Shown: positions 31,828 through 59,883 of the stretch, in pieces
Numbering within the stretch: the stretch's first letter is position 1
How the letters are laid out: the number at the start of each line of letters is the position of its first letter
Assembly (NCBI GenBank): GCA_016748015.1
Contig: JAAOMT010000003.1
Span: 1,372,147-1,436,146, forward strand
Length of the DNA: 64,000 nucleotides
Source: Geosiphon pyriformis
Lineage: Eukaryota; Glomeromycota; Glomeromycetes; Archaeosporales; Geosiphonaceae
Reading direction: 5' to 3'
Made by a program: the position numbers and the translations under genes
The notes under the pieces: generated by a model
What the model was told of the DNA's origin: nothing
The model's database searches: none
Seen by the model: the letters and a program-made list of their open reading frames with translations, nothing else

Positions 31828-33151
31828 TTATTCTGGGTATCCTAGCGATTTCGGCAAAGGATTAGGACATTCGCCAATCGTGTAGCTAAAATATGGACCT
31901 TTGTGTGATTGGTCACCCAAGTAATGGTATTTATTGTTGCATAGCTGAAATAAAATGAAAAGTTAGCTATAATTTAAGATAATCTCAAAAGATCAATTTT
32001 AAAAAATTGATGAAACCCAACCCTCAACCTTCAACCTTCAACCTACCCGATTTTCTTCCATTTCATTATTATAACAAACATAAACCGTTTCGGTCGCTGG
32101 CTGGTGTTCACAACTACAATCCACATATATCCAGTATTCAAGCATCGGATGAACTAATGGTTCTTGGGATACTGTAAGAGGCAACCGCGGCACATAATCA
32201 TCGGTATGGGTAACTCGATATAATCTAACATTTGTCAATATGTTATACATGTTCGCAAATTCCTTGTCACCAATATGTGGTAACCCGTAGGTGAACACCT
32301 CAAAGCGAACCCTTGGCATTCTTTTGCTCCATTTTGCAGCTGCCAGTACAGCGTAAACTAATAAAATAATCAAATTCTGACCTAGTTAATGTATGAAAAA
32401 GTGACTTTAAAATTATAATAAACATTTCTTACCTCCTCCAATACTATATCCAACCAAATTCACGCATTTAATCGAATTTCTATCAGTCCTGGGACTTCGA
32501 AAAATTTGCCTGGCAAAATGATACATTATTTTTTCATCAATATTTGCTTCAGCCTCAAGAAAATTTTTGCAAAATTCGCCATCTATTTGTCCATCAAAGC
32601 AAGAGACCAGTTCAAACTTTCTATCTATCCATTCTTGGCGAGTATACTCGGCACCCTTGAATGTTACGACTAGTTCCATTTGAGACCTTGTGTTATATGT
32701 TGGTTCTGCCTTTACTGTTCAATTGAACCGTCAAAGAATAAAGACTTAAAAGATTATGACAAACTATTTAAAATAATAGTAAACGGAAAGAAGTACCAAA
32801 AATATTTGGTCCAACTTCATCACTTTTCTCGTATTCTATACAATATGCGATCCAAGCGTAGTATGAAAATTTCTTAATATCCTCAAATATTAGATTATCC
32901 TCATTCAGAGGAGTTTTTTGACTTCGGCCACTGAGAACATTTTTTTTCGGAAGTTTAGCTTGAATTTTAAAACGTGGGTTATATATAGCGGGTAATATTT
33001 CGGAATCATTAATCGGATTGTGTAGTCTTTTTTGATCTGCCCAGATTGAGATTTCTTCATCTCGAGTCTTCAGTATTAAAATCACGATTATGGATATGAA
33101 AAAGTATAGTATTATAAACGATAACTGAGTTTTAGCTGTTCTCCTTTCCAT
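31828..33151 (-). CDS. class-3 lipase-like membrane protein A (catalytic triad kept)
   Basis: Four exons, 32797-33151, 32433-32705, 32047-32357 and 31828-31944, give 351 residues. A signal-anchor segment (LSFIILYFFISIIVILIL, residues about 10-28) precedes the lumenal or extracellular lipase-3 domain. The nucleophile elbow is GYSIGG with Ser at about residue 206 (32443-32445). The Asp is in THTDDYVPRLP and the His in SHKGPYF (residue about 327). The oxyanion-side strand is VVTFKGAEYTRQEW. It shares with its four paralogues a YAW-x-AYC block before the domain, the paired cysteines of WI-x-x-DCSCE, and a last exon starting near a Cys-Asn-Asn. It is the only one of the five with the elbow serine, so it is the best candidate for an active lipase or esterase. 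The intron phases (1, 1, 0) match those of B, C and E. Confidence 0.88.
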
Positions 33152-33691
33152 ATTCTTGGTTTTTTACGAAGGTAGTGGCAAAATCAGCTGAGACAAAGAG
33201 CTGAACGCCTCGAGTCTTGATATCATTCCGGTCAAAATTATAAATAAATGATGAATTAATTTCTCTGATTATTTTATAGGTAAATTGGTATCAAGCCCAT
33301 CTTTGGTTAAAGTTTCTCATTTTTGAGGATACCTCAAATTTCCCGCTGAAGCTTTCTTTTGTTGAGATGTTTTGTGGACAAACAGGCCAAAGGTTTTTAA
33401 AACCATAAGATCAATCGGGTAACGATCGGGATAGACAGAAAGGGTGTGTGAGGTTTCAAGAGTTGTCTCTGATTTTTAGATCGGACAAATCCGACATTGG
33501 AAATAAGGCAAGAAGAATGAACCAGTGAACAAGGCTTTTTAGTCAATGTATTAATAGAAAAAAATGTCCTAGAAATGAATCTTACCAAATCATATAAATA
33601 CTTTGATGGATTTATTTCAAGAAAGTGAATATATTAAATTTTAATTAGTAATAGTATTTTTCTCTTACCTTATTTTTTTTTTGCAAATATA
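33152..33691. other. spacer between lipase A and transposon copy 2
   Basis: Upstream region of lipase-like gene A, probably carrying its promoter. A 63-codon open frame on the - strand shows no recognisable feature and I do not call it. Confidence 0.4.
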
Positions 33692-33693
33692 TA

Positions 33694-33716
33694 CAGTCAG
33701 ACCTCTATAAAAGAAC
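33694..33716. repeat. left terminal inverted repeat, transposon copy 2
   Basis: CAGTCAGACCTCTATAAAAG followed by AAC. It differs from the copy 1 left end by one C/T change. Confidence 0.9.
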
Positions 33717-33816
33717 ATAGTTGGGACATGCAAATTATGTTCCATTTTAGAGGTGTTCTATTATAGAGTTTTATAATTATTATCAAATAAACTATATTTA
33801 TTTATAAAATCAATCA

Positions 33817-33861
<45 letters not shown>
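33817..33861. repeat. (TTA)n microsatellite inside transposon copy 2
   Basis: The same tract as in copy 1 but roughly half as long again, in the transposase tail region. Confidence 0.85.
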
Positions 33862-33863
<2 letters not shown>

Positions 33864-33902
33864 AATATAGATTAATTGTTACCCGTTTTTTAGAATTTTC
33901 CT

Positions 33903-35510
33903 TCATTTTTCGTAATAATATAATATTTTTCTAAGTAAATTTTGGTTTTCTATACTAAAATTTTCTTCTGCTAATTGTTCTTCAAATCTAATTACCTTTT
34001 TTAATGCTTCATATGCTTCTGTAATTGTAATTATAGCAGGTGGAGATTCTAATTCTTCTTCCGAGTCATTAATTGTATTGGTTTCAATTTGAGCATCGGC
34101 TAAAACCATATCTACAATTTCATTATCATCAAGAATATTTTCAGTTGCCAATAATTCATCAACTGCTACAGTATAATCTTCGAGATTTTTGACCAATTTT
34201 TGCTTGTTTTATGTTCAATTTATTTCTAAAAAATAAATTAATATTAGATAAAATTATATAATATATAATGATAATAATACTGTATATATTATATTACTTA
34301 ACTGTTCAATATTAATTTTTTGTTCAAATTGATGTAAAATATGTTGACAATATAAATGCTTATATTTGCCTTTGAAAGATTTGATAATGCCAGCATCAAT
34401 TGGTTGAAGATGTGATATAGTATTTTGGAGGAAAATAGTGCAAAGTAATATTGGTCAATTAGAATGAATCTTCCCCGATTTGAGTATGATGAGAAGTTGC
34501 ATTATCAACCAAAAGTAATATATGCCAATTTTGAATTCGAAAGCCTTCATTTATATATTTGAGCCATGCTTTCCATATATCTGAGTGCATCCATGCTTTG
34601 GAATTGAATTTGTAAATCACAGGTAGGTTAGAAGTATTAATTCCTTTAAAGCATCTTGGATTTTTTGCATGTCCAATTACTAAAGGTTGCAATTTGTGAG
34701 ATCCAGTTGAATTTGTAGCAAGAAAAATTGTAATCCAAGATTTATCCTATAAAAAACCCAATTAATTTAATATAAGAATAATATATAACGATAACAATTG
34801 GTAAATATAATATACCAATTTTTTTCCTGCATTTCGACATTTTGCAAGTGTTTGATTTGGTTCCATACGAAAAAATAATTCTGTTTTATCAGCATTATAT
34901 ATGTCAGCAGGATCAAATTCGGATATAATGGTTTTTAATTTTCTTCGTTCTTCTGGTAAACTTTCAGTTGATACACTTACTGCTTCACCATGAAATCGGT
35001 AAACACGTAACTGGTTTCGTTTTTTGACTTTTTGAACCCATCCATTTGAGAATTGCATTTCATTCTTGTGCATACCAAGAAGTTTGGCAAATTCTTTTCC
35101 TTTCTCTTTAATTAGTTGATCATTGAATTCGATAGTAGCTGCAGTTACTTGTTCTACCCAATAACTTAAAGCTTGGTCTAATAATGGAAATTTAATGCTT
35201 TTGTGTCGAATAGATCTTTATGAGATTTCATTAATTTCAATATTCAACCACTTTGCATGCTCTTTGGATATTTATGATTGAAGTAAGCTACAATATTATC
35301 ATGTTTCGTGCCAGAGTGATTTTTGGAATATTGACAAATTTCTTTACGAAGAGCATCATTAACTGCTGCTTGTTTTTGTTTTTTGAATAAAGGTTCCGGA
35401 CATTGTGATAATTTAGCAAGTTTGTTAGAAAATGTGCCTATAACGATAATATTAGATTTGGTTTTAGCAAGCCTGAATTGGAATACAATAGGGGCTAAGA
35501 GTAAATCCAA
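33903..35510 (-). pseudogene. CENP-B/pogo-type transposase, copy 2, broken
   Basis: The same protein as copy 1, again in pieces: psq HTH (about 35244-35400), CENP-B HTH ending GWVQKVKKR (about 35020-35160), first Asp block IYNADKTELFF (near 34880), and DDE core with LLVDNATSHH (near 34490-34520). Here the exon after the presumed intron is open (DKSWITIFLATN is readable, about 34700-34745), unlike copy 1. However, CAA has become TAA right after GEDSF (near 34461), and one extra T near 34425 shifts the frame. The acidic tail is truncated by the 150-nt deletion. The two copies therefore carry different disabling changes, plus at least one shared stop. Confidence 0.85.
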
Positions 35511-35755
35511 TGTAAATCGATTTAAAAGTAAGTTAGGATGAAATCAATTCAATACGTTCTAACTCTTTTCCCAATTACCAATTAACATCTAGCACGTGAT
35601 ATTTGTTCTTATATGAAGGTAAATTTCGAATAAACGTTTGATAAAATTATGTTTTTGTTCCTTTATAGATTATTCTTATATAGAGGGAAAATTGTTAATT
35701 AATCAATTGGTTCTATAAAAATTGTTCTTTGTAAGAGGTTGTTCTTTTATCGAGG

Positions 35756-35778
35756 GTTTTTTTATGGAGGTCTGACTG
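35756..35778. repeat. right terminal inverted repeat, transposon copy 2
   Basis: Ends TTATGGAGGTCTGACTG and is followed by TA. The inner end is degraded relative to copy 1. Confidence 0.85.
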
Positions 35779-35779
35779 T

Positions 35780-35808
35780 ATACATATATATATATATATA
35801 TATATATG
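35780..35808. repeat. (TA)n dinucleotide run
   Basis: TATACATATATATATATATA-type run directly after transposon copy 2. It probably pre-existed as the insertion target, since these elements insert at TA. Confidence 0.8.
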
Positions 35809-35963
35809 GAGAAATTATATTGTAGAAAAATTTATTTCTTTAAACTAAATTAATTGCGGTTTTTTATTAATGATGTAAAACTCTTTTATCCAAACAATCA
35901 TGTCCATAAACAAATTTATAAAGTTACTACATGGTTAGAAAGGTGTTGAGAATACTTAAACAT

Positions 35964-36003
<40 letters not shown>

Positions 36004-36409
36004 AACACACACTTTAAAAAATAAAGTAGTTTGAAAATTTGAATGTTTAATTTGTATTTGTGTCTTTACACCAAATGATCAAAAGAATCAATTATTATTA
36101 TTAATTTTAGAAATATAGATTTAGTGAGCTCTTAAAATAAAAAATTACAATTCATTATTTAACGAATGATTTAGAATCAGCTTTTCTTTAATTTCTCAAC
36201 ATGAGCTTTTGAAATAATAAGAGTGTTTATTGAATTAGATCTACAGCTTGTTTTTATGAATTATTACCCAGAAAACGTTTCTAATGATGAAGAAATTCAT
36301 AGGATTTTAACAAAGGTAAACTATAAAATTTTTTAGAATCATTAAATCTTATGTTCAATTCATTCCAAAGAAATAATAGTCAAAAATTTTCATTTTATAA
36401 AGTTATTCG
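35809..36409. other. intergenic, AT-rich with trinucleotide repeat
   Basis: AT-rich spacer carrying the (GAT)n tract at 35966-36003. No gene recognised. Confidence 0.5.
35966..36003. repeat. (GAT)n microsatellite
   Basis: About twelve uninterrupted GAT units. Not in an open frame that I would call a gene. Confidence 0.9.
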
Positions 36410-36631
36410 TTACTCACAAACAAGATGTCTTTGAAGGTTATCTAAAGTTTTTCCAAGTGTTTGCATATTACGCTGACTGAAATCGTAAAACTCGTCTTTC
36501 AAATGATTATAATTGACTGGAATAGTCTCATCTATTTCGACACTCAATCTTTCCTTAAGATTTATTAAATTTTCAATTCTGTTCCATTTCAGATATTTCT
36601 TGTGAACAGCATTCAAAGAATTTTTCATCAT
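36410..36631 (-). CDS. hypothetical coiled-coil-like protein (3' part)
   Basis: An open frame of 73 residues with a heptad-like helical pattern (IENLINLKERLSVEID, then FYDFSQRNMQTLGKTLDNLQRHL). The same frame stays open upstream for about 20 more codons (ISEGIKMMKN), so the Met is probably internal. A second - strand frame at about 36,675-36,868, starting MKATSQKCTLEDHPATC and containing RKAQLRHIMTILYTINHR, could be the first exon. I could not find a donor and acceptor that join the two in phase. I do not recognise the family; the helical content would suit a small complex subunit. Confidence 0.45.
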   Translation of the reverse strand: MMKNSLNAVHKKYLKWNRIENLINLKERLSVEIDETIPVNYNHLKDEFYDFSQRNMQTLGKTLDNLQRHLVCE

Positions 36632-36868
36632 TTTTATCCCTTCAGAAATTTTTAGAAAATTAGAAATAAAACCAAAAAAATTTAAAGAAAAATTTTTTTA
36701 TATATACTTTTTGAGGTTCAATCTATGAAGCCTTTTATCATTTGACCTATGATTAATCGTATAAAGAATTGTCATAATATGTCGAAGTTGTGCCTTGCGA
36801 AGGGTAAAGTTTGCGGTACAAGTTGCCGGGTGATCTTCAAGAGTACACTTTTGTGATGTAGCTTTCAT

Positions 36869-37783: not shown

Positions 37784-39071
37784 ATGAAACTTTTACAAAA
37801 TTGTACTTTTAACTCATTTTTAAAAGAAAAAATCTTACTATTATGGATCACCACCCTCCTTGGGTTATTCATCATCTTAGAAAAGTATAGTAATAATGAG
37901 AAAATTTACAAAATTTCGGAAAGATTAGAAGCAGCAGAACTAGATCCTGTAATTGGAAGAGATTCTTCTAAAATTGACAGTTCATGGCAGAATATGACAA
38001 GCTCAATTAATTTTAAAAGAAACATGGAGAAAGTAAAACTAGAAATGACATATTCATTTGTCCGGTACTTTCAAAGATACGCTTGGTACGCCATGAAAAC
38101 TTATTGCTTTGATAAAGAGGATATAATAGGCGAAGAAATTTCTGGTAAGACTGAACAAGTTTTTCCTTGATTTAATCTCATCAAAATTCTAATCGATTTC
38201 ATCAATTTGCTCCTTCATCAAGCTAGCTTAAAAGTAATAGATGGTGAATTGATATTTAGCGTGAAAGGTGAACCGGTTAATAATCATAATTATTGGAATT
38301 TGAGGCCTTCGAACTCTTTCATCGAATACGCGCCAGGAAAGAGAGTCGATAAACTATTTTATGAACAATATAGCAAAGTCGCTCTGATTCTTCTTAGAAA
38401 AATTTCAAACACTATTATTAAAACCGGGATTGAGAATGTGGTCGGTGTTGGTCATGGTATTGGAGGTGGTAGGTAGAATACTAGATTTTTTTTTTTTGGA
38501 AGAAATTCTTTACTTACATCATCTAAATATTTTTCTTTTTCTCTTTTATACTTAGTATTTTTAATATTTGCACTACTAGAAGTATGGAACATAAGAGCGA
38601 TATTTAAAGATTTACAAATAAAAGTAGTAACGTTTGGACAACCATACATTGGCGATAAATTTTTCGTCCAATCTCTACTTCAATACCCAGGAAGTTTTGA
38701 TATTTATCGATTCACAAATACCGATGATTATGTTTCAAGATTACCAGAAAGTTCAATAGGAACATATTATAAGCATACCGGCTTGGAACTTTGGAATGAT
38801 GTTTGTAATTGTCCGGATGAAATAAAAATTTATCTATGTCAAGGGCCTATTATTAAAGAAGGTGATTCAAATTTTATTCGAGAGAGTCAGGTAAGAAAAT
38901 TTTTATATAGTCAGCAACAAAATTCTGATTTTTAAAAGACTTTTTTATCCATTTTTCGGTTTCCAGGAATGCAATAATCAATATACTACCAAATCTTTTG
39001 AAGCGCATAATGGTCCTTATTTGGGAGTGATGATGGGCCAATGTTTGAATACGTCACCACCGTGGAAATAA
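37784..39071 (+). CDS. class-3 lipase-like membrane protein B (nucleophile Ser replaced by Gly)
   Basis: Four exons, 37784-38144, 38223-38468, 38556-38890 and 38967-39071, give 348 residues. The signal anchor is ILLLWITTLLGLFIIL (residues about 17-32). The pre-domain block is RYAWYAMKTYC. The elbow reads VGHGIGG: the codon at 38456-38458 is GGT (Gly) where lipases have Ser. The Asp block is TNTDDYVSRLP and the His block AHNGPYLG (His at 39006-39008) is intact. The oxyanion-side strand is VKGEPVNNHNYW, without the usual TFRGT. Cysteines are conserved (NDVCNCPDE, ECNNQY). The reading frame is undamaged and splice sites are good, so it is probably expressed but not a classic serine hydrolase. 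It ends 365 nt from the end of gene C, tail to tail. Confidence 0.87.
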
Positions 39072-39074
39072 AAT

Positions 39075-39435: not shown

Positions 39436-40796
39436 TCATGATGAGAGTGGTAATAATGGGTCCAGGCATATTCCCATCCTTATGCCAAGGTACGGTCCAT
39501 TATTTGCCCTAAAGCTTGTTGTATTAAATTGATTAACGCATTCCTGTGACCAAAGTAAATTCTTTAAGTGATCAATTCCAGTTCATGAATAAAATTTCTT
39601 GATTTTTTTGTGACATAATAACTTACATTACTCTCCTCGATAAAAAGGTACTCATTAGTACCCGTAATAAGCCCTGGGCATTTATAAATCATTGAATTGC
39701 AATCACAAGAATCATCAATCCAAAATTCCATCATGGAGTGAGTGAAACTATTCGTTGGCAGCCTTGGCAAGGGGTCATCATCATGGGTGAATCTATAGAT
39801 CTGAATGTATTCTTGGAGACTATTAAGAAATTGTGCAAAATAACGGTCTCCTATTCTTGGTTGCCCAAATGTGTACACTTTAAGGGATGGTTTTCTATTG
39901 AAATTCTTGACACGTTCCCAATACTGAAGGATTGCAAATGTTGCGTAAACTATTTATTTAGAATTTAGGAGTTTGAAAATTTTATTATTTAGTTTTGAAT
40001 TAAGTCAATTTAAACCAATTAAAATTAGGGATTATAACATACCCCCTCCAACCCCATGACCCACGGCTACAATGCTATCTAATTTCGTGAGCTTTTGCGT
40101 ATTTTGTAGTAAATCGATGATCTGATTTTGAGCTTGAAGGAAATTTGTGTAGAAAATTGCATCAACTTGGGTATTCGAATCCAAATATTGAATTAAATTG
40201 GTTAATCGCGTTGACCAGTAATTTAGGTAGTTAGCTCTTTCCCCTTTAACAAATAAGATGATTTCCTTTTTTTCTACTTTTATACCAACTAATGAATAGA
40301 TAAAATATTTAAAAACTTGCATAGCATTTCAAAGGAGATTTTAATTTTAATTATTCTTACCATAAATAAAGGGAGTAATCATTTGTACCAAATGAGTACA
40401 ATAAGCTTCCATAGCGTACCATGCATATCTCTTTTTAACCCTTTGTAAAAAAAATTGATCAGTGATTAATTCTCTATTCTCTGAAATTTGTCTCAACATT
40501 AACGTATTTTTCTTTTTAGCCTTGCTCCTATTTAAGGAGATTGTAAGAGAAATTTTTGAAAATAAATTCTCAGTAGTGTTAGTTTCTTGTAAAGGTTTAT
40601 CAAGAGATCCAAATCTATCAAGAGAATAGTGTGATTGATTAGATGATTTTATTAACCACCAGGTAAATAAAAAGATGACAAAAATACTCGAGAATAAAAA
40701 GATCTTTTGAATTTGGTATCCATTTTTATGTAAAGATTTTTGTTTATCATTGTATAAAATGTGAAAAGAATTTGGAAATAACAAAGTATTAGACAT
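39436..40796 (-). CDS. class-3 lipase-like membrane protein C (Ser and His both replaced)
   Basis: Four exons, 40361-40796, 40043-40288, 39627-39949 and 39436-39543, give 370 residues. The signal anchor is IFLFSSIFVIFLFTWWLI (residues about 32-50). The pre-domain block is RYAWYAMEAYC. The elbow is VGHGVGG with GGG (Gly) at 40053-40055 in place of Ser. The Asp block is THDDDPLPRLP. The last-exon block reads ANNGPYLG: the codon at 39502-39504 is AAT (Asn) where B has the catalytic His. The cysteines of WIDDSCDC and EC-x-NQ are kept. The exon layout matches gene B codon for codon around all three introns. The start Met follows an A-rich run; an in-frame extension upstream lacks a better start. 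Confidence 0.86.
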
Positions 40797-43272: not shown

Positions 43273-43304
<32 letters not shown>

Positions 43305-43756: not shown

Positions 43757-45697
43757 TTAAAAGAGTTCGGGATGTTGTTTTTTCATGAGGTCACATGTAA
43801 ATTTGCGATCATCGAGAATTTTTGGTATCCATCCATTTTCCTGATGGAAATAAAATATATTTCAGAAAATTTAAAAATTCTAGAAAATTCAATTTCCTGC
43901 AAATTACATACCACGCCTAACTGATAATCCCATTTTGGATTGATATTATTCTCAGTCTTCCAAGTCCAATAAAACCAACCGCTTCCTGCTTCAAATGCTT
44001 CCATTTGTAATTCAATCAGCGCCAGCTCATAATCCTTATCCGATTGTGTCCAAGACTCCCAATTCTTTTGACTTTGACAGGCACAATTTGGGCATCCCGT
44101 ATTAGGGGATTTACTATGTGTGTCAAAGCCGTTAAAGTCTTTCGCACAATCATCTGTTGCTGCTGCCCATTCACTTACAATTGTTGAACTAAAATCTTTT
44201 TCACTGAGCGCAATATCTTGTTTCCATTTAACGCATGGGTAAGCCAATTTTTCGTTATCAGAAGAATTAGATAAATTTTTCACATATCCCAAGTAATTAT
44301 GAGTGCCTTTGATTGAAAAGATTAAAATAAGTCAATATTTTATAAGTAATAAATTAATAAAGTAATAAAGTAATAAAGTAATAAAGTAATAAAGTAATAA
44401 AATATTATTTAGGAATTTCAGTTTACTCACCCAATATTTTAAACTTTTCGTCTTTGAAAAGGTCAGTATTTGACCAAAATTTAAGTCCGTAATGCGCTTC
44501 ATCCAATATAACATAAGGCTTTTGATTTGTGTCGTTATACGAGTCTTGTATGATATTGTAGGCTTTCAAATAAAAATCCGTAAAATTTCCAGTAAAATTT
44601 CGAGCTACCGGTTCGTTAACAGGTCCCAATAGTGTCACTACATCACTATAATTTGATTTTTTAAAAAAGTTTGCTAACGATTTTACCATCCGAAGAGTTC
44701 TTGCGCTATCTGTTGGACTATTATTTAGTTCATTTACAAACTCAACTTCAGTAAGCTGACCTTTGTGATTTATGAAAACGTTAAAAAAATCAGATTAGAA
44801 GAAATCCGATGATTTTTAGAAAAACTAAAAGTACATACCGTCTTGACCCCCACCAGGTACCACATGTAAATCTACATATACTCTTATACCCTGTTTTCTC
44901 GCCCAATTTATCCCTCTTAACAAAAATTGCCAGCTTGCAAGCTCCACATAATTTTCACCTTCTTTTTTTTCAATCGCCCAAAATCCTATTGGAATTCGAA
45001 CATGGTTGAGACCGAACTTTCGCATTTGAATAAAGTCATCTTCAGTGATAAACTGATCGTAATGGTTCAATAACCTCCTTTTAGCTTCTTTCGGCGATAA
45101 TGATGAGACCAATGCTGTTTCATTCGGTGCATTACTATTAAATAATGATGGGACGATGAACGGATCAAGAACCAGCCAACCTCCAATATTTACACCACGT
45201 ATTTTATAATTTGGATCCCCATAAGGAAATTTTTGATCTATTGGTGGAGTTGTTTTATCATTAGGTCTTTTGGAATTGTCAAATGTACTACTGTCAATTA
45301 TCATAAAAGAAGAATCGAGTTGAGGAAGTATTGGAATTCCAAATTTGTCATACGCAACTTCGGATGGATAATGATATGTGACATTTTTCTTTGGATTAAT
45401 AAATGACGATGGATCGGAGTCATCAGTAGCGTTATGATATGTGGCGGAATTTTTTTTTCTAGGTCTCAATACTAGATATACAATTCCAAAAACAATGACA
45501 ATTATCGTGACAATAAATGACAACAATAATTTTTTCCAATTACGACTTAATGAATTTCTGCCAGTTAATGATTTCTCTGACATTGCATCTGATGGTAAAA
45601 TGGATATTGCTGCCAAATTGGTGAGCAGTGAATCTGGAATTTCAAAAGATTGTTCTTGAGCTGGTAAAATTTCTTCATTAATGCCATGTCTCTCCAT
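43757..45697 (-). CDS. membrane-anchored GH5 exo-beta-1,3-glucanase-like enzyme
   Basis: Four exons, 44839-45697, 44431-44760, 43912-44306 and 43757-43840, give 555 residues. An acidic cytosolic N-terminus of about 55 residues is followed by one membrane segment (LLLSFIVTIIVIVFGIVYLVL), a Ser/Thr/Asn-rich stem and a GH5 catalytic domain, a type II arrangement as in fungal Exg2-like enzymes. Blocks seen: KIRGVNIGGWLVLDPFI, GLNHVRIPIGFWAI, VYVDLHVVPGG-QDG, the proton donor in GPVNEP (Glu about 335) and the nucleophile in VSEWAAATDDC (Glu about 442), then GSGWFYWTWKTE. Both catalytic Glu are present. Several N-x-S/T sites suggest glycosylation. It probably trims or remodels cell-wall beta-glucan. 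Intron 2 (44307-44430) contains an 8-bp minisatellite. Confidence 0.92.
44345..44401. repeat. 8-bp minisatellite in GH5 intron 2
   Basis: Six or so copies of an AGTAATAA unit in tandem within the intron 44307-44430. Confidence 0.85.
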
Positions 45698-47174: not shown

Positions 47175-48070
47175 ATGTCAAATCAAGAGCAAGAATATAC
47201 TTTATCTAACCAAAATCTCAAAGCGTCGGTAAAATGTTTGCACCCACGAGTTGGATTAGGGGTATTTGTTACTCGAGAAGGAAGGTTCTTGATTGGCAAA
47301 CGAAAAGGGTTTCACGGCTCAGGTATTGTTTTCTAAAAGTATAGATGGATAGCAGCACAAAATTCTCCAAGAATATGAGTAATCATTTTGTTCATGTCAT
47401 CATATAAATGCTACCAAAGGAACATGGCAACTTCCTGGAGGTACGTATTAATCAAAAAGTATTTGAAACATCTTTTTCTTAAAAAATTTTTATCAAAGCT
47501 CATTTTAATTATTTTAGGAAATTTAGAATTTGGTGAATCTTTCCAAGATTGTGCGAGCCGTAGGTTTTTTTTTCGTTATTCTTTTTGCTTTTAAATGAAT
47601 ATCTTGATCTTAAATTTTATTGTATACAATCCTGATCTAAATTTCGTAGGGGAAGTGTTAGAAGAAACAAACCTCATCATTCACAATATCAGATATCATA
47701 CTACAACAAACGACCCAATGCCCGAATTGAATAGCCATTATGTCGATATCTTCATGTGCGCCGAATCGGCTGATATTAATGCGGAACCAATTGTTAGCAT
47801 CCTTTTAAATTTCTTTTGGTCTAAACTTGGCTATTTTCAACCTTTCATTTTTTTTATAAGTTAAGGCAAGGTGATTTTAAAATTTTCTTTTCTTTATTTC
47901 AGGTGATGGAACCAGATAAATGTGATATTTGGAATTGGATAACCTGGGATGAATTTATAAAGGATGGTATTGATAGTCAAACCAACAAGTATCGGCCAAT
48001 GTTTCAGCCAATGCAATCCTACATTTTGCAAAGAAATGGTAAAGGTCCTTTTAAGGATATTAAAAATTAA
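47175..48070 (+). CDS. Nudix hydrolase, NUDT15/AtNUDT1-like
   Basis: Five exons, 47175-47322, 47420-47440, 47518-47559, 47650-47792 and 47903-48070, give 173 residues in phase. The protein opens with a strand typical of the group (VGLGVFVTREGRFLIGKRKG), then GTWQLPGGNLEFGES, and the Nudix box G-x5-E-x7-REVLEET with all catalytic Glu. Downstream, HYVDIFMCAE and EPDKCDIWNWITWDEF match the NUDT15/plant NUDT1 group, which removes oxidised or abnormal nucleoside triphosphates. Exon 2 is a 21-nt micro-exon coding TWQLPG, and the box is split across exons 3 and 4. The substrate is inferred from family only. Confidence 0.9.
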
Positions 48071-48269
48071 TTTGAAGAGATTCTTAAAAAATTTGAATCT
48101 AAACAGCAAATGAATAAATGAGTAAAGCCTTTGATTTTGTAATAGAAAACGGTTTTCCAATGTATTCTCCTTTTGAAGGATCAGGTCAACGTCGGTGCTA
48201 AAAATAAAATTTATACTATTTCTTTGATATAGTTTTAAGATGCGAATAAATAACATGCAGAGTTGGAGG

Positions 48270-48502
48270 GAAAAAAAAAGGATTTGTTTATTACTGTCTA
48301 GCTTATTGATGTTACATATACAATCACGTGAGCATACAATCTGATCACCATTACTAATAATATGTAAAAAGATTTTAATGCTTTGTTTTTTCTCTTTAAC
48401 AGAAATAACATCAACAATTATACCTTTTCCATTTGGTTTTTGTTGATGTTGCAGATGAGACTTTACTGAAATAATTATGTTACAGCTTGGTTCAAGAAAC
48501 AT
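48270..48502 (-). CDS. possible exon of an unknown protein
   Basis: A - strand frame starts MFLEPSCNIIISVKSHLQ and continues with GKGIIVDVISVKEKKQSIKI and GDQIVCSRDCICNINKL. Its amphipathic strand pattern is more protein-like than other frames in this AT-rich stretch. After about 48,270 the frame becomes the low-complexity antisense of the spacer and Nudix exon 5, so any real gene must splice or stop there. I do not recognise it; it may belong to the repeat next door. Confidence 0.25.
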
Positions 48503-51428
48503 GTTTTTTATTTTTTTAAAAATAAAAACTTGTACTTATTATTAACTTTTTTGTAATTATTTTAACAATACAATAATTATAATATATACATAAAACAATT
48601 TCTTATCCAATTTTATGCTCACAAATTTTAATTAATAATAATAAAAAAGAATAAATAAGCAAAAAAAAGCACAAAATTAAAGCAAGTTTTTTTTTACATT
48701 TAAAAAAACAAGAAATAAAAGAAATAATAAAAAGTCTAAAAATTTATATATATTTAAATACAATATAAAAAATAAAAATAAAGCAATAATTAAGTTATAT
48801 TAAATAAAAAATAAAAGTTTTAAATATATTATATATATTACAAAATTATTATTATAAAATTGTATAAAAAGTTATTTTAATTTTAACTATTTTTAGAATT
48901 TATTAAAAAATATATTACAATAATATAATTTTATATAAAAAAAATTATTTAAGTTTAGAAATTTTTTATTTATTAAAACATTAAGACACAAAAGTTTAAA
49001 TAATTTGTTTAATATTATTTTTAATATTATTTATAAAAACAATTATAACAAATAATTAGAGTTTAAAAATAAAACTGCAAAAATAATTTATTGTTCTATA
49101 AATATATATTTTATATGTAAGAACAATTGTTTGATAATTAATTTAGTCTTAAATATAAAAAACAAAAACAAAAAACAAAAAAAATAGCAAAATAAATAGT
49201 AAAATAATTATAAATCTGACCAATAATTATAAAAGTTCTAAAAATAAATATTTAATTTAATATTAAAATTCCAAATAAAAAAATCACATATAAAAAAATA
49301 ATTATAAGTTTGGTTTTTAATAATTATTATAATTATTATAATTTTAAAAATAAATACAAAAATATTTTAAGATACTATTCCAAAAAAAATTATATATGAT
49401 AAAAAAATACCAATATATATTTTTTGTTTTATTTTAAACATTAAAAAAATAACTGGTTCAATAAAAAAGTATATTTTTATAATAAATTAATATATAATTG
49501 GTTGTTTTAATAATAAAAATTTATATAAGTTTATAAAAAAAAATTATTTCTTAATAATAATAACAAAAACCAAATATTTATATTTATTAAATCTAGTAAA
49601 ACTTGTAACAAAAATAAGATATTATAATTGTGATAAAATTAATAACAATAATATTTAAAAGCTTGTTCATATTTGTTTTATGGTTTAAGCTTTTGTAAAA
49701 AAACATAATTTAATATAATATATATAGACACAAATATGTTAACAAATTTGCAATTTTGTAAATAAAATCAACAAAAAAACTACTGTATAATTTATATAAA
49801 CATCTAACGTTATTTTTATCTTATTTTTTAATATAAATCAGATAACAAAAAAGATCCAAAAATAAAAAATTAATTTTAAAATAACTCAAAAAATGATAAT
49901 ATAAGTATATTTAAAATTTAGAAAAAGGTTTTTATTAAAAACTAAAGAATATAAAAATAAGTGTACATAGTTTTAGAAACATATATAAACAAAACTTATA
50001 TTTAATACAAGTAGATTAATAAAAACTTAAAAAAAAAGAGTTTTTTTATTGTTATATATGCAACTTGAATCTTGATAAAAATATTAGTAATAGACATAAT
50101 ATTTTTTTTTGAGCTTTATTGAACAGCTACATAAAATTTAAATAATAAATAAATAAAACTGGTCAATAATATATTTACAAGTAATAGTATTTTTTTTAAA
50201 AAAAAGAGATAAAATTTATTGTGGCTTTTATTATAAAAAAAATATACAGCTGAAGCCAACAATAATAATAACAATATTAAAATAGAATAAAATTAGTAAG
50301 CACTTAAAATATACAATTGGATAAATATTTAAAAGATTTTTTTGGGTTTTATTAAGTAGAATTGTTTTTTAAAGTACTATTTAAATAATAGATTATGTTG
50401 GCTTATAATAATTAATGTTGTATATTATTATATAATTCAATCTATTTTTATTTTTGCGCTCTTTTTTGAGATTAAAATTAATTATGAGTTAAGATATTAT
50501 ATAGACTTATAAATATTTTTTCTACAGAAAAATCCAGTAAAATACACAATTGTGCAGATTTGTAATAAGATAATCTGTTTGTTAGTAAAATATAAACATG
50601 TTATTAAACTTATAAATTACCAAGAAGTTTTGTTAATTTATTTTTTGTATTTTTATAAACATTAAAAGGTATTTTGTTTTTTTAAGAATTGCTTAAAAGA
50701 AAAATATTGTAATCCAAATTTGAAATAGGCTGTTTTGAATTGAGTTTTGTAAGTTTAAAAATAATATAAGTTATACAAATAACAACATTTTTGAAGTTTA
50801 AGAGCAGACAAAAAAGAAATAAATTCAATTTTTTCTTTTTTATGCTTTATAAGATCTGTAAAATGAATATTATATATAGTCTAAAAAGTGAAACCACATT
50901 TACATCTCTTTGCTAATTTCAAAAGCTTTTTATTAGTTTGCTCTTTTTTTATTATCTTATTATCTAATTATCTATTCCTTTTTCATTGTTACTGTCTTAT
51001 ATAAAATAAGATATACTACTTAAATTGCTTATTCAAGTTTTTTTAGGCAATAGCAGACTATTTTGATTTTTTGTCATCTATGTATTAATCTTTCCAGCAT
51101 TTGCTTTTCTCATGTTTTTTCAGTCATATGAAAGTTGGTTTTATTTTTAAACAAAAGACCCAAAGCTAAAATCTTGATTTTTCGTGATATTTATAATTTG
51201 TAATTAAAAATAATTGCATAATATTTAATTATTATATGATCGTATTGTCAAAATTATATATATGAATACAATTAGTGACAAAAGATTTTATCATCTTTAA
51301 TTGTAATTTATGTAATACTTATTTTTTATATTAAAAAAACCAATTATTATAAAATTAGTTAAATTTCGAAAAATTGATAATTATTTTACTGGACAAATAA
51401 AACTAAAATTTATTTTATTTTAATAAAA

Positions 51429-51429
<1 letters not shown>

Positions 51430-51459
<30 letters not shown>

Positions 51460-51461
51460 TG
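51430..51461. repeat. (ATT)n microsatellite
   Basis: About ten ATT units in a gene-free region. Confidence 0.85.
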
Positions 51462-52188
51462 TTCAAAACTTGTATATTTTGTAAAAAGTTGTAAAATCAG
51501 AAATTTACCAAATATTTCAGCCTTTAAAAACATAAAATACTTCAATTTTAAAATTATTTTTTAAATAAAATAAAATTTTCAATAGTCAAGTAATAAAAAT
51601 TAATAATTTTATTAAAAATTAGCAATATTTGCAAAATCTAGTCTTTTATGCTAGATAATTAATTGAAAATATTGATTTAGAAAATAGTTTTTGGTAAAAT
51701 ATTTTAAAAAACTTCAATTCATTTCACAACTTGATTTGTAAAACTGTACGGTTTTAATTAATTTTAATGACATAGAATTAAGTTTTTAAAGACTTTGGTA
51801 TAGTTTTTTGAAATGATTTTTTTAAAAAAAAAAAAGCTAGTAAAAGGTGTGTAGCATAATAGATTCAATTCAAGTAAATGCATTATAGATTTTTACTCAT
51901 GAAGGCTAAAATTGCCAATTTCCAATGATTAATTGGACATTATTATTAGATTCGTAACACATAAATTTCATCCTTTAAAGCAAATATATAAATATTTTAA
52001 AACTGTTTGGAAATTCACTGATTAATCGTCTAATATTCATATTATCGAGCAAGAAAATTCCGGTTTCTCAAAGTAAATAAATTTAGTATTATATTTGTGT
52101 TTTTTAAAGAGATAAGAACTAACATAATATCGATTGTTTTAAATGAAAAAAAATTGGAGATTTATTTTTGAAATCCTAAAATCATAAG

Positions 52189-53620
52189 ATGATGGCTTAC
52201 AAAAAAAAATTCTTTAATCAAATACATTTACATTTAATATTCCTTTTAGTTCTAATTCTTTTTTATACACTCTTATTCTTGCGAAAATTTACTCCAGTTC
52301 TAAAGGGCAAAGAATATGAACCACCTTCGAAATATGCCGCTCATTTTTATCGGAAAAACTTAAATTCAACGCTAAATTATCTTGATTCAACCACTCGAAA
52401 GAATGCTATGCAACAACGGTCACTTCAAGATTTTGATACTTCTAAACTCTTTGAATTGGCCCAGGCATCAAATCAAGCTTATTGTATGAGTGGGTTGGAT
52501 CTTATAGGTTAAATTTTGAAAAGATTCTTAATTTGTCAAATTATTCCAGTCCGCACTTTTTTTAACAAAAAATTTTTTGCAAAATTCTAGCAAATCAAAT
52601 TTTAGGCACGGAATATATCGTTGCTTTTGGAGGTAGCGAAATGATAAAATTCTAAACCTATTTCTTTTAAAAATTACCCCCGATTATTTATTAATTTTGT
52701 CATTATGGCTTTCAATGTATCTATCTATATAGGGTTCTCGTTGACTAAGAAAGAATGGACAAACTTAAAATTTAAAATGGTCCCATATGTAGTAGATGGG
52801 CTCAATCCGGACCCTTTAATTCAAGTAGCAGAAATATTCCAAAATGGATTCCTTGCCCTCAAAAAATCTATTTATTCAAACCTTAAATTTTTGTTTACAA
52901 TTCGAAAAAAAGAGGGTTTGAAAATCATTCATTTCACTGGATGGGGGATTGGTGGTGGTATGTTTTAAACTCTTTCTTCTCAATAAATCGTATTATTAAA
53001 AGTTATCCACATTTAACAATTGCTGTTCTCAATTTTATTGAAAAGCATTGGCAGTTATCGCCGCAATTACCTTTCAACTAGAATCCTACATAAAAAACTC
53101 AAATTTTGACGTACGAGTGACCACATTTGGTGCGCCTCGTATAGGAAACACTTATTTCGCTCGTTTAATTAACAAATTTTTAGATATTCAAAGATTTACA
53201 TATTTCAATGATCATGTTCCTCATTTTCCGAAGCGTGACTCTATACCCAATGATATTTTGACACATCATGAGCTCGAACTATGGATAATTCCTGAAAAAC
53301 TCTGCGACTGTCCAACTGAGTTTCGTATTGTACGGTGTCCAGGTTTTGATTACAAGAAAAAGGCACCGCGACAAATTGGAGTGTCCAATGACACATTCTT
53401 CCCACACCGTGTAATGTCGGGGGAAAATCAGGTTTTTAAAAATGATTTTTTCATTGAATTAACAAAAGCTTTTTTATTTAAGTTTTTTTTTAAAAAAAAT
53501 CCTTTTAAGGAGTGTAATGCTGGCCAATCAATTACGAATGTACGAGTGGACTTTGTCCATGTTGGACCATATTTTGGTAAAATCATGAATGATTGTACGG
53601 GAGTTCTCGGAAGTAGATGA
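52189..53620 (+). CDS. class-3 lipase-like membrane protein D (nucleophile Ser replaced by Gly)
   Basis: Five exons, 52189-52507, 52591-52632, 52733-52957, 53046-53431 and 53510-53620, give 360 residues. The signal anchor is LHLIFLLVLILFYTLLFL (residues about 13-30). It is the most divergent member: the pre-domain block is ELAQASNQAYC, closer to ordinary fungal lipases. The oxyanion-side strand is EYIVAFGGFSLTKKEW. The elbow is TGWGIGG with GGG (Gly) at 52945-52947. The Asp is in FNDHVPHFP and the His in VHVGPYFG (about residue 341). It has one extra intron (52633-52732) that splits the second exon of the other members. The last intron (53432-53509) is 78 nt with no in-frame stop, so retention would add 26 residues; paralogues support splicing. 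A second Met follows the first immediately. Confidence 0.85.
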
Positions 53621-54921
53621 ATTTCGTCGAAGTCAATTTTTATTGTATACGAAATCTTCCCTTCGTAAAAATTTTGCTAATTAAATAAGAAACAAATAAA
53701 ATATTCAAGAATTAACAACATATTAGAAATTCTGGTACCATTTAAAAAATCCTTTTTTGGGCATATCAATATTTCAATAAATTGAATTCTTGAAAGTGTC
53801 TTCTTTGCTTTGAAAGTAGCTAATTTTTACATATTTTGACCATAGCAACAGTGCTGCAGACAAATTCTTAAAAGCTTGCGAGAATTTAAATTTTAGTGGG
53901 AAATATCAATTATCATTAGTCGAAACCATATTATAAGCAAATACGACAGAATTTACAGCACAGTTCTCTACTAAAGTCTACAATTATTATTATTATTATT
54001 GTAGACATTTTTAATTCGCTCCATCAATTTCGATGTTTTATCTAGATTGACATCCGCAAAATGAATGAAAATAAGATTTGGGAGGAAATAATTTGGTGGG
54101 AGTCATGTAAAGATTCTTCGCTCTCCAAAGAATCTTGAAAGTGTACATTTAAAAACAACAATTCGAAAGTATTGAATTTAAAATCATTTATAAACTGGTT
54201 GAAAGAAATAATAATTTCATTAAATAATTTTAAGTATTTAAATGATTAAAACAGTTTATTTTTTTAATCATTTTACTAATTGTATTTTTTAAAAACTATT
54301 TAAATAAAATATAAAATTTTATTATTATTGTTATTTAAAAACTTAAATTACATCTAATTATTTAACTTGATTGAATTTATTTCTTAATAAAAAGTTTATT
54401 TATGTTTACAAATCTTTTAATAATAATTTGATTATTTTTAATTTAACCAGATTTAAAAACTTTACAAATTTCAATTTAGAAAATTTGTATTTTATTAAAA
54501 TTATTCAAAAAATTGTTATTTATACCAATAAAACATGAATGCTCTTCAGTAATAGTTACTTGGGAAAAATTGATAACAAAACATTTATACCAGGAAATTT
54601 TCAAAATATTCAATGACAATTTAAAAAATTAAATATAATGAAAAAGAAATCATTTTATACAATGTGTGTTCAGGTCCATTCAAAAAAAAGATTTTCAAGT
54701 TCATCTGGCACTTGTCAAAACAAAATAACAGAATTATGCATTTATCCATAAATTCATTGGAATGCTGCCCTAAACATAAAAAATACGGGTTATTGAATAA
54801 ACCCTTTGTATAAGACGGGGTTTTCGCCTCCAGTAGAGGATGTGAGGTTGCAGTTTCACGAATATATAAGATAGGCCCATGTGGATAATTAGCTATATTC
54901 GTGATATATGCATAGCTGGCA
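53621..54921. other. convergent intergenic region
   Basis: About 1.3 kb, AT-rich, between convergent lipase-like gene D and COQ8. It has an (ATT)n run near 53980-54001. An open frame running through the COQ8 end is a shadow. Confidence 0.5.
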
Positions 54922-57256
54922 CTAACGTAAAACAAGCTCTTCGAAAATATCTCGACAACGAACGCGAGCTCCCATTTTTGCACACAAAAGAAAAGCTCCT
55001 GATAATTTTCTGTGTAAACTATATGTTTCATCGGGTGGCGGTGTGAGACGGTAACGTAGCATCGTAGGGATTAATTCTCGAACCCGGTGGGTCACAGTTT
55101 GTTTTGAAAAGTCATAAAGTTTGCTGCCAAATGGCTCAGCTAATGCCATTATTGAATCTACATGTGCCGATTTCATCACCTTTTATATGAAAAGATATAT
55201 CAAGTTAGATGATTTCTGAATATTTTATTATCAGAAGATTAGGTGAATAACCTCAGTTTCCAATCCAGTTAAATATCCCAGTTTTTGCGAATAATTGAGA
55301 CATCCCGCGCGATCTTGTTTAAACGCAGCTATTAGCGTTTCACGGTACAATTCTACGAATTTGGGATCAAATTCACGGCTTGCTCCAAAGTCAAGTAGCT
55401 CAATCTGATATAATTTTTGATATTAAACTCGATGAGATGAATATTGGAAGTCAAGAGAAATAAAATTGAAATAATATACCTTTCTTGTTTTGCTATTGTA
55501 AAAAAAATTGGTCCAATTAGGATCTGTTTGCATGAAACGAAACTCAAAAAGTTCTCGTAAACATAAACGAAGTATATTTTCAGATATCTTTGAAATATGA
55601 TATCTTATTTTTAGTATATAAAAAAAATGATAATTAAAAGACAGTAGAAATATGAAGTAATTCACCCTGTCACGAGTTTCCTGATTATATTTTCTAGTTG
55701 TAACAGTCATTGATTCACCATTCATTAATTCACTTGTTAAAACCATTGTTGTTGTTAACCCTTTGACAAGCATTGGGACAGCAAAATTTTGATCATCTTT
55801 CAAAAGTTGGCCAAATTTTTCCATGCACCTTCCTTCTCGAAGATAATCAGTTTCCCAGGCTAATTCTCGCCGAGCCACTTTGATCGTATTTTCGAGATAG
55901 AGGCCTTTCGGCAATAAATTACTAAAAGTGATCAAAGCTCTTAGGTTGTCCAAATCAGAATCAATAGATGCCGCCACTCCGGGATATTGAACTTTTACAG
56001 CAACTGGGATCCCATTAATTTTTACATTGGCTGAATGTACTTGACCAATAGATGCGGCTGCAATGGGAATGTCGTCAAAGGATAGAAAATTTTGACGCCA
56101 TTCAGGTCCGAGCTCTTTTACCATTACTTTCTAATACTCTTGAAAATTTCATAAATTAACTTGTAAAAAGGAAACCTAATAACTCCATATTACTGACCTC
56201 CATTTGCCATTTTGGCATATAATTAGCACTATTTTGAACCCGCAAAAGTACTTGTTCCAAAGGTTCCGGAAGCATTTTATTATCTGATATATAAAAAAAA
56301 AACTAGACTTGAATAAACAAGCAAAATTGAATTAAAATTCTTGATATTTTACCTTGAATACTAATCATTTGTCCTATTTTCAAGGCTGCTCCACGCATTT
56401 GTGACAATTTTTTTACTAGACGCTCAATGTTAGCCTCACTCATTAATAATGACCCTTTGCTTTCTAAAAGCAATTTTCAATTAGTTGTAGAAATTATTGG
56501 GCAGGAAAATTTTGACGAATTCAAACCATCTAGAGTTCTATCCTTTCGAACAATTCTACGAGCAGCTTCACTTATAGTCCCGATCCCAAGACCAACTGCA
56601 AGACCTGTGAATGGAATGTTAGTCATCAAAAAATGATTAATTTGGTGAAATTCAAATTTCAACATTTATTATGAATTACCGCTATATTGAAAGAGTCTAT
56701 TAATTCGAGAAGCCGGAACTTTGGATTCTTTTAGAATTAACTTTGGCTGACTCTAGAGATATTTTATGAAAGATTAAAAATGTTTCTGTATGGCTGACAG
56801 ATCATCTTCAGTTAAACTCACTTTAGAAGTTATATCTTCATCAAAATCTTTTTCGAATTCTTTGGCAGGAAATTTCGAGATAAATGGCCCTCTTTCGGTT
56901 GAAATAATTTTAGCTTGATGATTCAAATTAAAATTCATGGCCTCATTTAATGCGCTGGATGGGATAACGGGATCATTGTTTTTATTCAATGTTAAATTTT
57001 TTCGATCAAGGCTAATTGGATCTTTAAAAGCTTCGTTTTTAAAATCATTTTCGGTAGATTTTTCAATAGAATCTTGATCTTGATTATGAATCTCAGTTGG
57101 TCTTATCGACCATTGCCAATTCGAAGTCTTTAAAAATAAATCTGCGTTTTTTCTTTGCAATGTTAAGAATTGGCTTGCAAAAATTTTTGCGGCGTGAGTC
57201 AAAAGAATAAGATCAATTAGACGCTTTTGGGGCGAATTCGAGAAAAAGTGGTTCAT
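54922..57256 (-). CDS. COQ8: COQ8/ADCK3 atypical kinase for ubiquinone synthesis
   Basis: Mitochondrial UbiB-family kinase/ATPase that supports the coenzyme Q biosynthetic complex. Nine exons: 56822-57256, 56680-56752, 56527-56604, 56353-56463, 56198-56283, 55666-56130, 55480-55587, 55252-55404, 54922-55179. They sum to 588 residues in phase. Hallmarks are all present: the KxGQ motif in MRGAALKIGQMISIQ, the Ala-rich loop AAASIGQVHSA that replaces the Gly-rich loop, VAVKVQYPGV (Lys), TDPNWTNFFYN (catalytic loop) and LLDFGASREF (metal-binding DFG). The N-terminal 150 residues are poorly conserved and acidic, as usual for targeting and linker sequence. Exon 1 ends at a strong GTGAGT donor; reading through it gives a false C-terminus. 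Confidence 0.94.
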
Positions 57257-57282
57257 AACAAATCAAAAGTTTTTTTTTGAAG

Positions 57283-57313
57283 GAATGATATGATATGATA
57301 TGATATGATATGA
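57283..57313. repeat. (GATAT)n microsatellite just upstream of COQ8
   Basis: About six units of a pentanucleotide, 27 nt upstream of the COQ8 start codon, so probably in its 5' untranslated region. Confidence 0.85.
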
Positions 57314-58026
57314 TCGCTCAAAGCGAAAATAAATGCTGACAAAATATTCAAGAAATCTTTGATTATTGAGTAATCGACCAGTGATCGAGCTCTAATTTCT
57401 TTAGGCTGAGAAAATTTCATGTAGGACCAGAAAATTAAGCCAAAGTAGTATAACATGATTTTCATATAAATTTGTTATTCATTTTTTTTAGCATTTCAAT
57501 GTGTTAATCAGAAAAAACACAATGGTTTTTATTTATGATAGTTTAAATATGAGAAACATTTTTCCATGTAAAATTAATAAAAGAATTTCCGCTATAAAAA
57601 TTCAACCATTTTTATCACAAATTAAAAACATAGGTCAGGAATTTTTTTAATATTTAAATATGAGATATTTATTTCATCATAAATAAATCATCTAATATAT
57701 TGTATATTTTATTTCTGTTGGACATGAAAGATATAATATATTTTAAAAATTAAAAATATTTTATAAAATATGAAAATGTAATTTTTTGGATGAAATTGTT
57801 ATTAAATTTAAATTTAAATCTGAACAATTTAGAAACATTATTTTGGACAAAATGCAAAACTTTAATTAAAATATAATTTTAGCATATTGTTTCAAGATTT
57901 TTTTGTTTTCAGAGTTACATTTTCACATTCAAAGATAAAGAGAGGTGGATTTATTGAAAAGAATTAAAAATAAAATCTTTGTTATTATTATGGTTTAATT
58001 CATAATGATTTCATTTAAGAGACATA

Positions 58027-58053
58027 ATAATAATAATAATAATAATAATAATA
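58027..58053. repeat. (TAA)n microsatellite
   Basis: About nine units in the spacer between lipase-like gene E and COQ8. Confidence 0.8.
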
Positions 58054-58425
58054 TAAAAGTTATGTAATTGAGGATATAACTAATCAAATATTTGACAAAA
58101 TAACAAATGATAACAAAATTAATGAACGATTCAGAAGAGGCTCTCCCAATTTTAATTTGGAAAAGGGTGGTCTAAAATGAGAATTTCTAGTCTTTCGAAT
58201 TAATAGACATACAGATTCAAAATTATGAAAAAAAGCAGAGAATCGAATAAACTCTTTTTTGCATCAAAGCATTCCAAATATTTTAATAAAATAATTACTA
58301 AAGTTCAATGTAAATTGCACTGTTCAAGTATAAATTATAAATTTAAATTTAAATTTAAATTTGCCTTGGCTTGTCTCAATAATTTAAATTTATAATTTAA
58401 AAACGATTTTACATTCTTGATCCAG

Positions 58426-59883
58426 TTAGTATACTAAGATAGGATCAAATGAGGGATATGAATCGAAGCAACTTCCCATAAGGACGTTAAGGTAGGGGCC
58501 GTTATTTGATTCATAACGTGATAAAGAGTACTGGTTTATACATTCCTAAAAATAAAATCAATGGTTTTTCAATTCCTTGCTGATATCCAAAATACAAAAA
58601 TCTCGAGACTTTTTGCAGATAGCTAACCTGACTCTCCTCTGTATACGACTCGCCTTCCGTAATAATAGTTGGACCTTCACATTGATAAACCTCAGACGTT
58701 GGACAATCACAAGAACTATCTATCCAATATTCGGTTTTTTGATGAAAGTACTCATCATACACGTTTCTCGATATGCGAGGAATATAGTCGTCCCTGTGAG
58801 TGAACCTATAGAATCTGATATTTTCTCCAAGATTATTCAAAGTTTTTGCGAAATTTCGATCTCCAATATGGGGTTGTCCAAATGTGACTACACTTATAAT
58901 GGAGGTTGACGCAGTTCGTTGATATAATTGGAGGAAATCAAGTATGAGAAATGTCGCATGAACTAATTCAAGAAATTGTTTAGCTTATATATTATTACTA
59001 TATATAAAAAGAAATCAAGTGCATAGAATTATTTCGATTTACCGCCTCCTATGCCATGACCGACAGCCGTGATTTTGTATATATGATTTTGTGTTATGGT
59101 CTCAAAGAGCCAATTGGCGATATCATTATTAGTTGCAAGATACTGTTGATAAAAGTTATCATCCACCTTTACACCAGGATATCGCTGTAATGGAGTCATG
59201 GTATTTCTTTTGCCAGACCAATAAGAGGGGTTATCTGCTTTATCACCCTTTACTCTGACAATTATTTCACCATTTTCCAATATTATATCAGCTAAGAAAT
59301 TTGGAGAATTAAATTAGTTTTTGAGATTGAAAATATTCAATAAACTTTATGCACTCCTTAAAAATTTACCAAATACTCCTCGAGCAAACTCTCTCATAAA
59401 TTCAGGACAATATGCTCGCATAGCATGCCATGCATATTTTTGATGACGCCTCAAAAATTCTTCATTTGTTATTTTTAATTTTATACCAGTGCTGCTTTTG
59501 ACTTCTAAAGTTACATTTTCTTTTTTACCATCGACTAACCCTAATTTTCCTGTCGAACTGTATTGAGGATTTAGAACAGCTGTAACAGCCGATTTATTCT
59601 CACATTCTAAGGAATCATAACCATTTCTATTAACACAATTTCCAGACTTCAAGTTTGGTTCATTCTTTTCCACCGAGAAATATCTTGGTTTTTCTTTAAG
59701 GCTGACCAGTCTAATTCCAATCCAGACACATAAGGCAACAAGAGTGAAAATCAAAAGCATCAAATACCCACGAACTGATCTTTTCTTTGACCTGGGTTTT
59801 CGAAGTTGATTATTATGATCATAAAAAGTTGCTTCAACACGAGAATCAATCAAAGGTTCCTTTTCGTTAAGATTTTGCTTCAT
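58426..59883 (-). CDS. class-3 lipase-like membrane protein E (Ser and His both replaced)
   Basis: Four exons, 59370-59883, 59043-59291, 58628-58962 and 58426-58545, give 405 residues. A basic cytosolic tail (RKPRSKKRS) precedes the signal anchor YLMLLIFTLVALCVWIGI, so the rest should face the lumen or outside. It has the longest stem. The pre-domain block is KYAWHAMRAYC. The oxyanion-side strand is VRVKGDKADNPSYW. The elbow is VGHGIGG with GGC (Gly) at 59053-59055. The Asp is in THRDDYIPRIS. The last exon reads SNNGPYLN, with AAT (Asn) at 58504-58506 in place of the His. The cysteines WIDSSCDC and ECINQY are kept. A TATATATA run lies about 40 nt upstream of the start and may be a TATA element. 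Confidence 0.87.

Follow-up and report, generated by a model that had tools for sequence, protein, structure and literature searches.

The class-3 lipases of Rhizomucor miehei and Thermomyces lanuginosus (Pfam Lipase_3, PF01764) can be aligned with a protein family of Geosiphon pyriformis over the lipase domain, the nucleophile elbow, the triad Asp and His, the FRG oxyanion strand and the C-terminal YFG..C motif. Five genes of this family, A to E, lie between positions 31,828 and 59,883 of the window studied here, a stretch of 64,000 nucleotides on the forward strand of contig JAAOMT010000003.1 (positions 1,372,147 to 1,436,146; GenBank assembly GCA_016748015.1). The Geosiphon side departs from the two lipases in several respects: Gly occupies the nucleophile site in B to E, many relatives carry an oxyanion Pro, there is an additional CxC pair, and the N-terminus resembles a signal anchor. 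Judged by their sequences, B to E are not serine hydrolases; they are likely to be members of a very large set of living and diversifying pseudolipases, secretory and probably membrane-anchored, that would bind ligands or partners.

Single pseudoenzymes with a lipase fold occur in plants and animals. Plant EDS1, PAD4 and SAG101 employ a Lipase_3-type fold in non-enzymatic immune signalling; they are located inside the cell and have an additional EP domain. These proteins match the same profiles as the Geosiphon family, if weakly, but they amount to a handful of genes as against hundreds in Geosiphon, and no shared extra domain was seen: the EP domain is absent from A to E, for which Pfam at an E-value of 0.001 gives Lipase_3 alone. 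In the neuroligin-type cholinesterase-like adhesion proteins and the yolk proteins of Drosophila, which are pseudoenzymes of the alpha/beta-hydrolase type, Gly has replaced the nucleophile Ser. They represent other hydrolase families, from animals and with few genes, and we claim no membership in them for the Geosiphon proteins.

Entomophthora muscae, an early-diverging fungus of a different subphylum, resembles Geosiphon in the very large size of its PF01764 family (348 Lipase_3 genes); in the accessible part of that account, these lipases are treated as degradative enzymes and the nucleophile goes unmentioned (PMC10515909). For Glomeromycotina, the average number of lipases, all types included, is given as 189 per genome (PMC12574304). 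The open-licence literature yielded no account of class-3 lipases in Geosiphon that lack the Ser. Pseudoenzymes as such are a known kind of protein; unusual here are the size of the family, the repeated replacement and the fact that the Asp-His pair is kept.

The elbow in genes A to E

The elbow codons of A to E were read directly on the raw sequence, and the proteins were taken from spliced models (Table 1). The Ser in GxSxG expected of a class-3 serine lipase is present in A and absent from B, C, D and E, where Gly is encoded by three different codons (GGT, GGG and GGC); the earlier note on this DNA had reported the same residues, and for B to E at the same coordinates. Errors of splicing or of reading were rejected as the source of the elbow Gly, since the Gly codon (GGT, GGG, GGG and GGC, in the order B to E) is internal to exon 2, counted without the additional intron that D, with respect to A, B, C and E, carries in the stretch ahead of the elbow. 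Because this codon lies inside the exon between in-frame Gly codons, no splice visible in the sequence yields a Ser while preserving the elbow, a possibility that the earlier note had raised against its own claim.

All introns of the five genes are of the GT-AG type, splicing generates five full-length proteins, and a phase-1 intron follows directly 3' of the elbow in 5/5 cases. Lipase_3 scores were 65 bits for A, 41.5 for B, 73.4 for C, 57.3 for D and 75.2 for E, all five over the Pfam cut-off of 22 bits. A hydrophobic N-terminal segment of 19 residues (mean hydropathy 1.89 to 2.78), with net positive charge before it, is found in 5/5 genes and is probably of signal-anchor type. The description of B to E as intact multi-exon genes with good splice sites, as well as that of a lipase-3 core and a probable signal anchor common to A to E, stood up to analysis. 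Two of the three triad residues are missing in C and E and one in B and D, and none of the five proteins carries Pro at the oxyanion position.

Table 1. Coordinates, elbow and triad residues of genes A to E (window positions; exons in order of transcription)
Gene	Span	Strand	Exons	Protein (aa)	Elbow	Codon at nucleophile site	Triad Asp	Triad His
A	31828..33151	-	33151-32797, 32714-32433, 32357-32047, 31944-31828	354	GYSIGG	Ser, AGT, 32445-32443	kept	kept (codon 31905-31903)
B	37784..39071	+	37784-38144, 38223-38468, 38556-38890, 38967-39071	348	GHGIGG	Gly, GGT, 38456-38458	kept	kept (39006-39008)
C	39436..40796	-	40796-40361, 40288-40043, 39949-39627, 39543-39436	370	GHGVGG	Gly, GGG, 40055-40053	kept	Asn (39504-39502)
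D	52189..53620	+	52189-52507, 52591-52632, 52733-52957, 53046-53431, 53510-53620	360	GWGIGG	Gly, GGG, 52945-52947	kept	kept (53558-53560)
E	58426..59883	-	59883-59370, 59291-59043, 58962-58628, 58545-58426	405	GHGIGG	Gly, GGC, 59055-59053	kept	Asn (58506-58504)

Elbow census and phylogeny of the family

The assembly (124.7 Mb, 406 contigs) was searched with a DNA pattern consisting of the elbow plus the intron donor, with reversed patterns as controls; genes without an elbow intron or with an altered GG are omitted by this census. Gly (GGN) after His or Tyr gave 232 matches and AGY-Ser after His or Tyr gave 41, with no control match in either case. Other first letters, including AGY, gave 64 matches (control 6), and Ala, Asp, Glu or Val codons gave 51 (control 1). 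The 347 elbow-plus-intron sites comprised 232 Gly, 46 Ser, 41 Ala and 28 others (Asp 7, Arg 5, Phe 3, Tyr 3, Glu 3, Cys 2, Asn 2, Leu 2 and Ile 1), some of the rare residues possibly reflecting chance matches, judging by the controls. Ser is thus found at 13% of elbows, while 301 of the 347 (87%) do not have it. A Pfam Lipase_3 search gave at least 163 exon matches, 150 of 748 candidates having been scored. What the earlier note had taken for a local family of five is in fact genome-wide, with Gly as its commonest elbow state.

A slightly wider pattern provided a sample of 97 distinct elbow sites (52 Gly, 42 Ser, 2 Cys and 1 Arg). Spliced models above 60 bits were obtained for 89 of them (50 Gly, 38 Ser, 1 Cys), and those at 50 of the 52 distinct Gly sites were open. 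The Arg site and one Ser-like site were chance matches with no surrounding lipase, and each of the six that could not be modelled (2 Gly, 3 Ser, 1 Cys) has stops or frameshifts close to its elbow. Selection of the 89 models was not random: the 41 AGY-Ser sites were deliberately included in full (38 modelled), and the Gly sites, about 50 of the 232, were picked according to their contig order and their proximity to Ser sites, with two more that have Trp before the Gly. The Gly column at 100% among Gly members is a result of this site selection. One Gly site, L030, is absent from the 97, presumably since its 180 bases duplicate those of another site. Outside the model set lie five TCN-Ser sites as well as the 41 Ala and 10 Asp or Glu elbows, each known from 21 bases only; other alpha/beta-hydrolases use an Asp as their nucleophile.

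A tree was calculated from 85 models with the nucleophile column masked (the short models s0, s14, s62 and s67 were excluded). The Ser/Gly state requires nine changes on this tree, at least six of them being forced by well-supported branches, as compared to a mean of 27 for shuffled labels. B, C and E form a clade (support 98/90) inside a group (100/95) that also holds four Ser genes, D lies inside the largest Gly clade (97/88), made up of 37 Gly genes and 3 Ser genes, and A is placed elsewhere, not as sister to B to E; deep Gly clades persist. One local event does not account for the Gly in both D and the B, C and E clade: B to E as a single clade was rejected by the approximately unbiased (AU) test (p-AU 2e-8), as was a single ancient event for all sampled Gly members (p-AU 7e-47). 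The earlier note's assumption of the same change in the four genes is thus not supported, and caution applies to any argument built on it, since the frequent replacement of Ser by Gly needs no shared function.

Among young copies, Ser and Gly can be a single transition apart at this site. In a cluster on contig C96 (L028 at C96:232664 and L029-L033 at C96:297663-376466), one gene has AGT and four modelled genes have GGT at the nucleophile site. The Ser gene differs from its nearest neighbour at 10% of nonsynonymous sites and keeps Pro at the oxyanion position; on these sequences, its Ser is probably a reversion.

Selection, the rest of the active site and the proposed role

Whole-gene ratios of nonsynonymous to synonymous change (dN/dS) ranged from 0.35 to 1.10 for close copy pairs; these and the following values come from other Gly members unless stated, B to E having no close paralogue in the sample. 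In three young clusters (8 Gly; 4 Gly and 1 Ser; 3 Gly), family-conserved columns gave dN/dS values of 0.06, 0.05 and 0.05, as compared to 0.82, 0.73 and 0.48 for the other columns, and exon 2 up to the elbow was the fastest part or nearly so (0.82-0.93). One Ser pair behaved alike, with 0.04 for conserved columns and 0.92 for the others. B, C, D and E match 29, 34, 35 and 30 of the 37 family-conserved columns, respectively, and 44-55 of the 166-171 other columns (approximately 30%). Since the conserved columns are slow and the others fast, the fold core is guarded and the remainder is either nearly free or diversifying, both of which fit the data. The earlier proposal of selected non-catalytic roles thus agrees with the strong purifying selection on the core of Gly relatives, but sits less well with the whole-gene values near 1 of some pairs.

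These measurements bear on the possibility that the Gly genes are debris of runaway duplication in a repeat-rich genome, where catalysis would have been lost under relaxed selection and most Gly copies would be turning into functionless pseudogenes. Tandem clusters, the 6/97 elbow sites in unmodellable copies with stops or frameshifts, and the whole-gene dN/dS near 1 in several young pairs are what such a history would leave. Nevertheless, core columns within the three young Gly clusters evolve at a dN/dS of 0.05-0.06, open spliced models are found at 50/52 Gly sites with Asp kept in 50/50 and His in 46/50, and the Gly clades include deep ones that persist; we therefore consider debris an unlikely explanation.

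In order to place the rest of the active site, the profile of Ser members was aligned end to end with Rhizomucor miehei lipase chains. The elbow coincided with GHSLGG, position 82 aligned with the residue that follows F-R-G, and position 257 with the H-x-GPYFG His; we take positions 82, 144, 203 and 257 of this lipase to be its oxyanion and triad residues. The triad Asp is present in all 89 models (50/50 Gly and 38/38 Ser), and the triad His in 46/50 Gly and 35/38 Ser models (Fisher p 1.0), C and E being among the four Gly exceptions; a coupling of His loss to Ser loss is thus rejected. For comparison, the median column entropy of the family alignment is 2.76 bits. The R-x-T before the Asp and the GPY after the His are as conserved as the two residues themselves.

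The oxyanion position differs between parts of the tree. Within the largest Gly clade, 25/37 Gly and 2/3 Ser members have Pro there, as compared to 1/13 Gly and 1/35 Ser members outside it, a few gapped rows having been scored as not Pro. Comparison of the Gly members of the clade with the Ser members outside gives a Fisher p of 3e-9, a value that is overstated because the genes are related. Ordinary ester chemistry would be hindered twice in this clade, by the loss of Ser and by a Pro that has no backbone NH to donate. A replacement nucleophile was also sought and rejected: no residue is newly near-invariant in Gly members except the cysteines of the CxC pair, which are near-invariant in Gly but not in Ser members.

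HOD-type dioxygenases are alpha/beta-hydrolase enzymes with a Ser-independent His-Asp dyad, and the Gly members could by analogy be hydrolases, lyases or oxygenases of another chemistry, with Asp-His as general base on water or substrate. The retention of both residues, set against the median column entropy given above, is what one would expect of such enzymes; however, the Gly members show no new near-invariant polar residue, the CxC pair being the only difference, 25/37 of those in the big clade carry the oxyanion Pro, and the His is gone in C and E, so that we regard this as highly improbable. Slightly less probable still are dedicated regulators, Gly proteins that would pair with Ser proteins (in the window, with A, as the earlier note had suggested) and modulate lipolysis: Ser and Gly members do have the same fold and are interleaved in clusters, and inactive GH28 members are reported to matter for the active pathway in beetles, but there are approximately five Gly genes per Ser gene (232 versus 46) and A is not sister to B to E.

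We thus favour a pseudolipase set that binds ligands or partners. In such proteins, which have the fold of the Rhizomucor lipase, the empty pocket of the active site, together with the Asp-His pair, would serve to bind either a ligand resembling a lipid or an ester, or a protein partner, at the cell surface or the membrane. Binding specificity would be tuned by the parts that change fastest, chiefly exon 2 with the oxyanion/lid side, and new variants would come from tandem duplication. The conserved cysteines of the family, borne by the putative ectodomain, suit a secretory path, and a mechanical rule identified an upstream exon with a hydrophobic segment and a YC motif in 28/49 Gly and 14/38 Ser members, as compared to 0/87 on the reverse strand. 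The preference for Gly as the replacement would probably stem from the elbow backbone, whose strain Gly may relax once catalysis is irrelevant. The strained state of the nucleophile elbow residue is described in the accessible part of PMC8110907; the step from strain relief to Gly as the commonest replacement is our proposal and not that of the source.

Several observations weigh against this reading. The N-terminal anchor was not found in 21/49 Gly members by the mechanical rule. Whole-gene dN/dS values of 0.9-1.1 in several young Gly pairs are as expected of relaxed constraint. The triad His is lost in C and E, and B, C and E do not have the oxyanion Pro. Lastly, the retention of Asp and His may be structural and say little about a ligand, since the two residues are kept equally with or without Ser, perhaps for the fold.

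Neighbouring features and meaning for the family

Further lipase-3 exons and two Ala elbows were found within approximately 110 kb downstream of the window (C401:1480780-1546402), so that the array extends beyond the window. Between the lipase genes lie a marginal GH5-like exon (44825-45697, minus strand; 23.4 bits, cut-off 23.5), an intergenic stretch of 16-18% G+C (48001-52000; approximately 30% on either side) and an ABC1 kinase-like exon (55423-56124, minus strand), and a HATPase_c exon follows at 62345-63361, also on the minus strand.

Two matches outside the main set were inspected. An intronless match to the family (L006) is a different lipase with GHSLGA and not a Gly member. A search of IMG/VR for relatives gave two phage-like contigs, and L079, the one examined, has an ordinary GHSLGG lipase. 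The assembly also holds a very large Sel1-repeat family, with 1991 first-look candidates, of which 150 were scored and all of these matched, and open frames of up to 4187 aa; this fits Glomeromycotina. The Hint domain has only one match in the assembly, unlike the expansion reported for other Glomeromycotina in the accessible part of PMC8778642. A search for fungal fatty acid synthase (FAS; PF17951) gave 0 matches, but it had no working positive control and is uninformative alone.

Large counts of PF01764 in fungal genomes are read as digestive capacity. In Geosiphon, such a count would overstate lipolysis several-fold, because 301 of 347 elbows are without Ser. In addition, a large family that keeps Asp and His while Ser is repeatedly replaced offers a natural series for the role of the empty pocket of a serine hydrolase.

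A bolder proposal, which we hold to be doubtful, is that the lipase fold, once disarmed, gives Geosiphon a large and rapidly diversifying repertoire at its surface: hundreds of proteins with different binding pockets, by which it would recognise itself, its cyanobacterial partner or lipids for uptake. The Ser/Gly site would toggle by single transitions among young copies, so that dead pockets, and possibly live ones, form a common stock traded between copies. Geosiphon is a fungus with a cyanobacterial endosymbiont and is close to the arbuscular mycorrhizal fungi; a surface repertoire of this kind, if true, would bear on partner recognition in such symbioses.

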